A DNA stretch of 64,000 nt, from NCBI RefSeq assembly GCF_010500615.1, contig NZ_JAAGNX010000001.1, forward strand, positions 1,317,531 through 1,381,530, written 5' to 3'. Positions 1-51,945 of the stretch are shown in pieces. Every line of letters starts with the position of its first letter. Positions within the stretch are counted from its first letter, which is position 1. The DNA comes from Oceanipulchritudo coccoides. GTDB lineage: Bacteria > Verrucomicrobiota > Verrucomicrobiia > Opitutales > Oceanipulchritudinaceae. The translations under genes were made by a program, and so were the position numbers. A model generated the notes under the pieces. The model made no database searches and had not been told where the DNA came from. It saw only the letters and a program-made list of their open reading frames with translations.

Positions 1-1
1 G

Positions 2-190
2 AGCAACTACCCATGGATTTACCAAGCCAATTTTGGGTTCATGTATGTCATTGTCCGCTTACCCGGCGAGGCCATGTGGCTCTACAGCCCGACTCTCGGC
101 TTTGTCTACGTGGACGAGGGTGATAGAGGTCGATTCTACTTGTTCGATAACGGATGGACTTTCGACAACTTCATCAATCCTCAAGGTTAA
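2..190 (+). CDS. C-terminal end of a secreted aromatic-rich protein (partial)
   Basis: The frame is open from the window edge to a TAA and gives the last 62 residues of a gene that begins outside the window. The tail is crowded with aromatic residues in a spaced pattern (Pro-Trp-Ile-Tyr, Gly-Phe-Met-Tyr, Met-Trp-Leu-Tyr, Gly-Phe-Val-Tyr, Gly-Trp-Thr-Phe). Similar spacing occurs at the C-terminus of the exported protein at 43940-44926 and in the N-terminal part of the one at 50608-51945. I infer an exported protein carrying the same module. A strong hairpin follows within 20 bases. No function can be assigned. Confidence 0.7.
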   Translation, partial: SNYPWIYQANFGFMYVIVRLPGEAMWLYSPTLGFVYVDEGDRGRFYLFDNGWTFDNFINPQG

Positions 191-43939: not shown

Positions 43940-44926
43940 TCAACCTGGATTACCCAAGTTAACCCATTCCTGCATATTCCAGTCGTAGAACCACTGGTCT
44001 CGCGTTGGAAAGCCACTTGGAATACGATAACTCATCCAATGGCCGTCTTGAAGCCGGTACATAAGAGGGTAGTATGTCGCGTTTGTCCAAAGCCAGCCAT
44101 GGCCAGGCAGATAGAGCCACTCATTGTCATCGGTGCCTGTGCAGTAGGTCCAGCCCATGCCCTGAAAGGCCCACGGGGAGTTCATCGCAAGAGGAAAAAT
44201 CAATCCCATCCAATGATGGGTACGCCAACCGCCCGTGCCTTCGCGAAGCGTATTGCCCCATTGGCAATCCACCAACTGCGCTGTCCATTCGCCTCCAGGA
44301 CCCGTCAAATATGCCCCGGCCGTCCCCGGCGGGACCTCGTTTTTCCAATCGAAGTATAATTCGACAATCCCAATATCGCGGGCCAGCCAAAGCGTGAGGG
44401 TATCCAATTCATCTGTCAGAACCAATCTCAGTGTTGGCACAGTCCAACTTCCGTAGGATTTCTCCTCGATGCCATCGATACGAATGGTCTTGTAAAAGAC
44501 CGGTAGTTCCGTCCCAGCCTCGATCGAGTATTCATGACCAATTGTGACCAACCGGGGAAGGAAGGGGATCGGGTCGGGATAGGGAAACTCGCGGGTCTCC
44601 ATCGAAAAATCCAAGTCCCGGTAAACAGATTTGTGCAGGAGAAGATGCGATGGAGTCACTTCCAAATCAAAGGACCAGCTGACCGAGTATCGAAGCATGT
44701 AGATGGAGAGCTGGCGAATGCCTTGATTGTCATAGCCGAATGCCTTCTTGACCTTGACATCCCAACCGATGGTCCGCCACCAGTCATCCCAGTCGCCCCA
44801 GCCATCCATCGTGTGCTTATAATCCTCTTCCAAAATAAAAAAGTCCGCAATATCGACAGTCTGTCCATGAATTGCGGGACAAAACGCAAGGCACATTCCC
44901 ATCATGCCGGCAAGTTTCCCTCTCAT
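43940..44926 (-). CDS. Exported protein with aromatic-rich C-terminal module
   Basis: A 328-residue protein with a signal peptide (MRGKLAGMMGMCLAFCPAIHG) and a GGAGGAG ribosome site before the ATG at 44926. The middle (about 100-210) is a beta-rich region resembling DUF3108-like lipid- or ligand-binding folds (TVPTLRLVLTDELDTLTLWLARDIGIVEL); this is a weak guess. The last 80 residues are a module of spaced aromatics: MGWTYCTG, NEWLYLPGHGWLWTN, YYPLMYRL, WMSYRI, QWFYDW and EWVNL. The same spacing occurs in the partial protein at the window edge and in the N-terminal part of 50608-51945. Its function is unknown. Confidence 0.78.
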   Translation of the reverse strand: MRGKLAGMMGMCLAFCPAIHGQTVDIADFFILEEDYKHTMDGWGDWDDWWRTIGWDVKVKKAFGYDNQGIRQLSIYMLRYSVSWSFDLEVTPSHLLLHKSVYRDLDFSMETREFPYPDPIPFLPRLVTIGHEYSIEAGTELPVFYKTIRIDGIEEKSYGSWTVPTLRLVLTDELDTLTLWLARDIGIVELYFDWKNEVPPGTAGAYLTGPGGEWTAQLVDCQWGNTLREGTGGWRTHHWMGLIFPLAMNSPWAFQGMGWTYCTGTDDNEWLYLPGHGWLWTNATYYPLMYRLQDGHWMSYRIPSGFPTRDQWFYDWNMQEWVNLGNPG

Positions 44927-50607: not shown

Positions 50608-51945
50608 TCATGGGCTACTTCGTGCCACTCGGAGGCCGATCCGGGTCATTGTAAACTGGGTTGGGTAATCGGATTCGCGGTAGGCGACCCTGCACCATTT
50701 TTCGCCAAGGTCCCAGCAACCCCCACGCAGAATTCTTTTGGTTCCAGTCTCAGGTCCGAGGGGATCTGGAACAGGGGACTGAAAATGTTCGAGATAGTAT
50801 GCTTCACCGAACCAGTCATAGCACCAGTCAAAGACGTTTCCCGCCATATCATACAAGCCATAACCGTTTGGTGCAAATGTCCCGACAGGACTTGTGTAGT
50901 AGGCCCGTTCAGCATTTGTATCCCAATCAGGATGGTAACGGAGGGTTGTACTCTTATCGATGAGGCTGCCTACCCATGCATAATAATTGGCCTTTTCATG
51001 GGTGATCCAATAATCTTCCCAAGGGAAGCGGGTGTTGTCCAATCCCCCACGACCCGCCTTTTCCCATTCGGCTTCAGTCGGCAGGCGATATCCATCAACA
51101 GTGGTGTCCATGCTCCAGTCGGTCAGGTCAATTGCCTGGACCAATCCCCCTTCCATCCGCGTTAGATAGTGACAGTAGGCCATGGCCCCGTACCAGGTTA
51201 TACCCGTTACGGGAAAATTTTCCTTGCCAGAATCCACGGCAAACTGGCTACCGTCCCATCGTACCTGACTCCATGTTGGGGAATCGGATTTTGTGTAAAG
51301 CAGGGCCTGAACATCACCTTCAGTATTATAAACCCGATCGTTTGTGATCTCAACGAGTGCTTGCTCGCTCGCCCAGTTCAAAACCACGGCAAACTGGGCG
51401 TTGGTCACGTGAGTGTGTTGAATGTAGTAGGCAGACAACATGACATCGTGTGCCGGAATTCGATTGAGATATTCCTGTGACACAACATCGAGCCTGTCCC
51501 CCATGGTAAATGAACCCGCCGGGATGAGGGCATAGGTCGGAGATATATATTCAATCAATAAGCGCTGGCCGATGTCTTGATTGAGGGCGAAGTCGTGGAA
51601 AACCCTGCTGCCCGGTTCAGCTCCCATGTAATACCAATACCAGCCTTCCCGGTAACCCATCTTGTAGATTATTGGATAGGCTTCAGAGGACACCATGAAC
51701 CAAGTGTTCAATTCCAAATCATACAATGCCAACTCGGCAGTGTTTTCTCCGACAACTCGCATGAATCCATGCTCGCGGTGATAAATCCAATCGGGCGAGG
51801 ACTCATGGAATGCACCAAACCAGTCAAGGTTGTACCAACCCCCTCCGAGGTCATCTGCTCCATCCTGAATCAGTGTCAGGGTTTGCGCTATAGCCGTCCC
51901 AGCACATAAAAATCCGCATAAGAAAAGTCGTACAAGTGCCACCAT
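50608..51945 (-). CDS. Exported formylglycine-generating-enzyme-like protein with aromatic-rich module
   Basis: A 445-residue protein with a signal peptide (VALVRLFLCGFLCAGTAIAQ) and GGGAGGATTTAACC before the ATG. Residues about 37-125 form the spaced-aromatic module (GGWYNLDWFGAF, WIYHREHGFM, TWFMVSSEAYPIIYKMGY, GWYWYYMG). From about 138 an FGE-sulfatase domain follows: LIPAGSFTMGD, AYYIQHTHVTNAQF, VTGITWYGAMAYCHYL, YRLPTEAEWEKAGRGG, YGLYDMAGNVFDWCYD and RILRGGCWDLGEKWCRVAYR. One of the two copper-site cysteines of true formylglycine-generating enzyme (position GGS+3) is not Cys; the other position is. So it is probably a superfamily member without that activity. Confidence 0.88.
   Translation of the reverse strand: MVALVRLFLCGFLCAGTAIAQTLTLIQDGADDLGGGWYNLDWFGAFHESSPDWIYHREHGFMRVVGENTAELALYDLELNTWFMVSSEAYPIIYKMGYREGWYWYYMGAEPGSRVFHDFALNQDIGQRLLIEYISPTYALIPAGSFTMGDRLDVVSQEYLNRIPAHDVMLSAYYIQHTHVTNAQFAVVLNWASEQALVEITNDRVYNTEGDVQALLYTKSDSPTWSQVRWDGSQFAVDSGKENFPVTGITWYGAMAYCHYLTRMEGGLVQAIDLTDWSMDTTVDGYRLPTEAEWEKAGRGGLDNTRFPWEDYWITHEKANYYAWVGSLIDKSTTLRYHPDWDTNAERAYYTSPVGTFAPNGYGLYDMAGNVFDWCYDWFGEAYYLEHFQSPVPDPLGPETGTKRILRGGCWDLGEKWCRVAYRESDYPTQFTMTRIGLRVARSSP

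Follow-up and report, generated by a model that had tools for sequence, protein, structure and literature searches.

The C-terminal domains of type IX secretion are beta domains of about 70-90 residues that occupy the C-terminus of many exported proteins. PEP-CTERM (TIGR02595) is a short C-terminal domain carried by dozens of unrelated signal-peptide proteins per genome, and the proteins that bear it are believed to be directed to a site outside the cell that is connected with exopolysaccharide (PMC1569441). Choline-binding modules (CW_binding_1, PF01473) consist of aromatic beta-hairpin units on many exported proteins; most are C-terminal, with some N-terminal exceptions (PMC4929436). A lineage-specific C-terminal module for retention or sorting is already known as a kind of thing. 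The module described here resembles all three systems in these respects; its family, both of its forms and its predicted fold were absent from every library and paper searched. It was recognized in a 64,000-nucleotide stretch of the Oceanipulchritudo coccoides genome, hereafter the window, in which a preliminary description had proposed that three segments share one aromatic-rich module.

Three copies of the module in the window

The features of the window to which we refer are as follows.

43943 to 44926, minus strand: P0001, an exported protein of 328 residues with a signal peptide, an N-domain of about 200 residues and a C-terminal module
44864 to 44926, minus strand: signal peptide of P0001, residues 1-21, cleavage after ...AIHG (read by eye)
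43952 to 44233, minus strand: long-form module of P0001, residues 232-325, 3 residues short of the stop (HMM E 8e-14; wider profile 9.8e-21)
50608 to 51945, minus strand: P0002, with a signal peptide, an N-terminal module and an FGE-sulfatase/SUMF1-like C-domain
51883 to 51945, minus strand: signal peptide of P0002
51565 to 51843, minus strand: long-form module of P0002, directly after the signal peptide (HMM E 2.4e-17; wider profile 1.4e-24)
50620 to 51534, minus strand: FGE-sulfatase domain (PF03781) of P0002 (E 8.4e-51)
2 to 178, plus strand: C-terminal part of a divergent module, at the end of a frame that starts upstream (HMM E 8.8e-7)

Pairwise BLAST among the window segments gave no significant match (E 0.5 and 0.013), and their homology can therefore be proved only through copies outside the window. 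Further copies from the same genome were retrieved with one window segment as the query, and an HMM was built from 12 of them, none of which lies in the window. This HMM matched the window at 51580-51840 (minus strand, E 2.4e-17), at 43958-44230 (minus strand, E 8.0e-14) and in the tail extending from just before base 1 to 157 (plus strand, E 8.8e-7). The three matches scored 65.5, 54.3 and 29.0 bits, as compared with best scores of 11.6, 11.0 and 15.0 bits for 5,000 composition-preserving shuffles of each segment searched with the same HMM. Because the shuffle scores are far below the real ones, the match exceeds what aromatic content would give, and the proposal of one module common to the three segments was upheld. 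Two details of the preliminary description have to be corrected: the module of P0001, which had been placed at residues 249-328, starts about 17 residues earlier and spans residues 232-325, and a signal peptide, previously credited to two of the three proteins, is present in all three, the third of which starts upstream of the window.

The N-domain of P0001 (residues 22-220) gave no match to a known family; a paralogue in the same genome (L157:2088-3281) has both the N-domain and the module in common with it. The module-plus-FGE architecture of P0002 recurs in L108, L096, L090 and L132, and thus at no fewer than five loci including P0002. Of the two Cys positions used in catalysis by formylglycine-generating enzyme (FGE), the FGE-like domain of P0002 appears to keep only one (GGCWDLGEKWC; by eye), and it is, on this sequence, probably not an FGE. 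FGE-type catalysis was rejected as an explanation of the module, given that the first active-site Cys position is apparently Leu (by eye) and that other hosts lack the domain. The tail protein is encoded by a 592-codon frame with a signal peptide (G000:C1:1315942-1317717, equivalent to L144:4443-6218), and its module is a divergent subtype that matches model positions 1-66 only. The region just upstream of the window (L144, G000:C1:1312900-1317717) holds three adjoining module genes, which encode a short-form protein on the minus strand, an endonuclease I bearing a long module, and the tail protein, which extends into the window at base 2.

Sequence, predicted fold and taxonomic range

The consensus of the long form comprises about 90 residues, GGWKSSSWFGLFNEDEEPWIYHAEHGWLYVEEESAESLWLYDSELGWLWTSEELYPFLYSAERGEWLYYDEGSEEERWFYDFSSEEWVEEE, and follows the pattern GW..S.WFG.F....PWIYH.EHGWLY.......LWLYD..LGWLWTS...YPFLYS...G.WLYY..G....R.FYDF....W. 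Trp, Tyr and Phe together account for about 25% of the residues in the module versus about 12% in the remainder of the host proteins. Aromatic residues stand at positions i and i+2 over six consecutive strands (19/21, 27/29, 39/41, 47/49, 57/59 and 66/68), and the near-invariant positions are W66, P56, G10, W8 and W47. Conservation of the H..HGWLY motif was not counted as evidence, because the copies showing it had been chosen by that pattern; the second H is less frequent in copies that were not so chosen.

Several weak matches to the long profile led to the short form, which has 58 residues and the pattern W.GY.V...GY.DTG.WLGW.NV..DPWIYS..L..YIY.P......GAWIY. Profile comparison shows its homology with the first half of the long form (hhalign probability 95%, E 3.4e-8), and it had no match in Pfam or NCBIfam. 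The short profile gave 39 matches in about 37 proteins of the own genome, and the long and short forms together mark about 68 of its proteins. The two forms are exchanged between homologues, as seen with the FGE-like domain shared by P0002 and L205 (E 3e-11).

AlphaFold2 models made with an alignment of related copies predicted an all-beta meander for the P0002 module (pLDDT 89.5, pTM 0.79) and a nearly all-beta structure for the P0001 module (pLDDT 84.2, pTM 0.77). When a fold match in the PDB was defined as a Foldseek E below 0.001 or a TM-score above 0.5, neither model had one; the best E-values were 0.71 and 0.85, and no TM-score exceeded 0.30 among the matches listed. A search of viral structures with a module model likewise gave no match. 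Pfam, NCBIfam and PHROG searches with the long module gave no credible score or none above threshold. When 25 modules were compared with Pfam at E-values up to 1, nine families were matched, and none of these was a carbohydrate-binding module (CBM) or choline-binding family. The sole sequence-profile match in the PDB, to retinoschisin (E 0.11), was taken as chance. Literature searches found no description of the module.

The 3.5-Mb own genome contains about 30 copies of the long form (profile search, E<0.001), and 15 of 19 relatives, the own genome counted, carry 3-54 copies. Sampling of the order Opitutales found the long module in 53 of 178 genomes, and sampling over the phylum Verrucomicrobiota in 7 of 289; the copies per genome in these two surveys are lower bounds (at least the number found). 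The short form was found in 18 of the 178 order genomes and is nearly limited to the family of the window organism. When 84,980 species were scanned with a DNA pattern encoding W[hyd].H..HGW[hyd]Y, 55 loci were identified. Fifty of these were confirmed by the profile, and all 50 were labelled Opitutales/Opitutia or else Verrucomicrobia or Puniceicoccaceae; the five that the profile did not confirm included the three matches labelled Anaerolineae, Legionella and Mesenet. No module was matched in viral contigs, phages or plasmids. In G132, which is related to the window organism at the phylum level only, the one copy is carried by a multihaem cytochrome resembling module hosts of the own genome, and this copy looks like a whole-gene transfer.

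The aromatic module family is thus established as a genuine domain superfamily, as yet without a name, that belongs to one bacterial order. The preliminary description of a recurrent, mobile, beta-rich domain typical of the lineage and belonging to no described family is borne out by the profile copies, their distribution, the Pfam and NCBIfam searches and the AlphaFold2 model. It had suggested an HMM search of relatives and Pfam, which returned more copies in Verrucomicrobiota and no Pfam family above threshold, and structure prediction with fold comparison, which returned all-beta models with no fold match in the PDB.

Placement, hosts and interchange with PEP-CTERM

Thirty-six distinct proteins of the own genome are hosts by the long profile, a set that includes some weak matches made through the short form. 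In 32 of them the module lies no more than 17 residues from the stop, and in the remaining four (P0002, L143, L148 and L171) it lies close behind the signal peptide. The short form is within 3 residues of the stop in 33 of 34 hosts. Long modules also occur mid-protein (L133 and L122). Outside the 36 hosts, most of a protein of about 288 residues (L098:7087-7950) is taken up by two long modules in tandem, and such a protein could cross-link the ligand.

A recognizable signal peptide, assigned from hydropathy and by eye, is present in nearly all hosts. Among the long-form hosts the clear exception is an Stf0-type sulfotransferase (L156:2027-3541), which has a C-terminal module and no signal peptide and which, among 103 genomes searched, is unique to the own genome. 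The earlier assignment of the module as extracellular consequently holds for nearly all hosts but not for this copy. The hosts are diverse, with 58 Pfam families in 61 hosts, few of them polysaccharide-degrading. The passengers include endonuclease I, subtilase, proteases, multihaem cytochromes, BspA-type LRR, RCC1, CAP, fasciclin, ice-binding, chondroitinase B(-like), BNR_2 and FGE-like proteins, and to judge from their sequences they are unrelated to one another.

The own genome also encodes 18 PEP-CTERM proteins, detected by pattern and TIGR02595, and in no case are a PEP-CTERM end and a module present on the same protein. When mature N-domains were compared, four homologous pairs were found in this genome in which one member has a PEP-CTERM end and the other a module end. 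The members of one pair are encoded in tandem (L151:2071-2658 and L151:2627-3508, on G000:C1) and show 44% identity (E 1.6e-27); the other pairs are L191/L169 (E 6.5e-20), L199/L174 (E 2.8e-20) and L200/L180 (E 2.6e-19). The alignments span the mature domain and end at the tag. The search covered the retrieved genome regions only, and the number of pairs gives no rate. The tandem paralogues at L151:2071-3508, with the PEP-CTERM end followed by the module end, constitute a natural tag-swap pair. Three further paralogues of PEP-CTERM proteins have neither tag at the end, which indicates that proteins also lose or gain a tag without exchanging it for another. Exosortase-like matches (TIGR02602) were obtained in 137 of the 178 order genomes, most of them module-free, and modules were found without a detected exosortase in G011, G353, G379 and G393, which is weak evidence because these genomes are incomplete.

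Proposed function and comparison with known systems

In the interpretation toward which we lean, the module would be a lineage-specific binding element, independent of exosortase, whose aromatic beta-sheet surface holds exported proteins to the envelope or to exopolysaccharide; we infer the binding, the ligand and the surface location. Dozens of unrelated Sec-exported proteins carry it, mostly at the very C-terminus and in some cases immediately after the signal peptide. It is predicted to fold as a meander of beta-hairpins in which Trp, Tyr and Phe at alternating strand positions create an aromatic sheet surface. Through non-covalent binding of this surface to some component of the envelope or exopolysaccharide that the cell itself makes, the passenger would stay on the cell, and the module would stand in for PEP-CTERM with no exosortase needed. 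Alternatively, the aromatic face of the model could be the core of the fold instead of a binding face. A more ambitious version, which we put forward tentatively as somewhat less likely than not, is an Opitutales display system in which long and short modules of a new fold anchor about 70 exported proteins per genome, or about 2% of a genome of this size, non-covalently to a lineage-specific envelope glycan, interchangeably with PEP-CTERM and independently of exosortase.

The exchange between homologues suggests that the module, used in the place of PEP-CTERM, serves the same end, namely that an exported protein is kept at the surface. The same swaps, together with the dozens of copies per genome, the lineage restriction and the extreme C-terminal position, above all of the short form, would also be expected if the module were a C-terminal sorting or secretion signal read by a dedicated secretion or sortase-like machine, as are the T9SS CTD and PEP-CTERM. 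We consider such a signal unlikely, since modules are also found N-terminally (P0002, L143, L148 and L171), mid-protein (L133 and L122) and in tandem (L098), the T9SS tail (TIGR04183) has no match in the own genome, and the module has neither a membrane helix nor a basic tail. The single module gene of G132 indicates, moreover, that a large client set is not needed there. Given the C-terminal, N-terminal and tandem placement and the lack of a membrane helix, a binding domain fits better than a cleaved signal.

Binding to a carbohydrate or to the cell surface, as proposed in the preliminary description, is plausible. If the ligand were an environmental polysaccharide to which enzymes are directed, the module would be a substrate-targeting CBM; CBMs are usually aromatic-rich beta domains, and chondroitinase-B-like, BNR_2 and sulfotransferase hosts would suit this role. 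Most hosts, however, do not act on polysaccharides (nuclease, proteases, cytochromes, LRR, RCC1, CAP, fasciclin and FGE-like proteins), homologues exchange the module for PEP-CTERM, and the Pfam matches include no CBM family; we consider this role unlikely as well. The host range and the PEP-CTERM swaps favor retention at the cell's own surface or exopolysaccharide over the recognition of food polysaccharides. Weak similarity to OCRE (best E 1e-5) and kelch (1.5e-4) in single members could point to an aromatic hairpin domain whose targets at the surface are proline-rich peptides or partner proteins. We regard this as very improbable, because the OCRE scores of 17.3 bits (consensus) and 19.1 bits (L143) are under the Pfam gathering cut-off of 24.7, only 2 (OCRE) and 1 (kelch) of 25 members are involved, and no OCRE structure is among the Foldseek matches listed.

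Surface proteins of Verrucomicrobiota are poorly annotated, and the pair of profiles marks a large set of proteins in the own genome that probably share a location; it also defines the end of many "hypothetical" proteins. If retention is indeed its function, the module would be a second way, besides exosortase, of holding proteins on an outer-membrane bacterium. A confident model with no counterpart in the PDB is a target for structure determination.

Among the known systems, OCRE (PF17780) has a similar aromatic hairpin-type sequence but is a 52-position profile from eukaryotic splicing factors, whose match to the module is the sub-threshold one described above. The T9SS CTD is strictly C-terminal, whereas the module can also be N-terminal. 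PEP-CTERM, similar in its distribution over unrelated exported proteins, consists of the PEP motif, a transmembrane helix and a basic cluster; the module, in contrast, is a soluble aromatic beta domain of 58-90 residues that can be N-terminal and whose occurrence does not track exosortase. The module differs from choline-binding modules in that it has no choline-binding Pfam match and no regular 20-residue repeat, no choline-binding solenoid is among the Foldseek matches listed, and its host is Gram-negative. The choline-binding modules serve as our working analogy for the proposed non-covalent retention.
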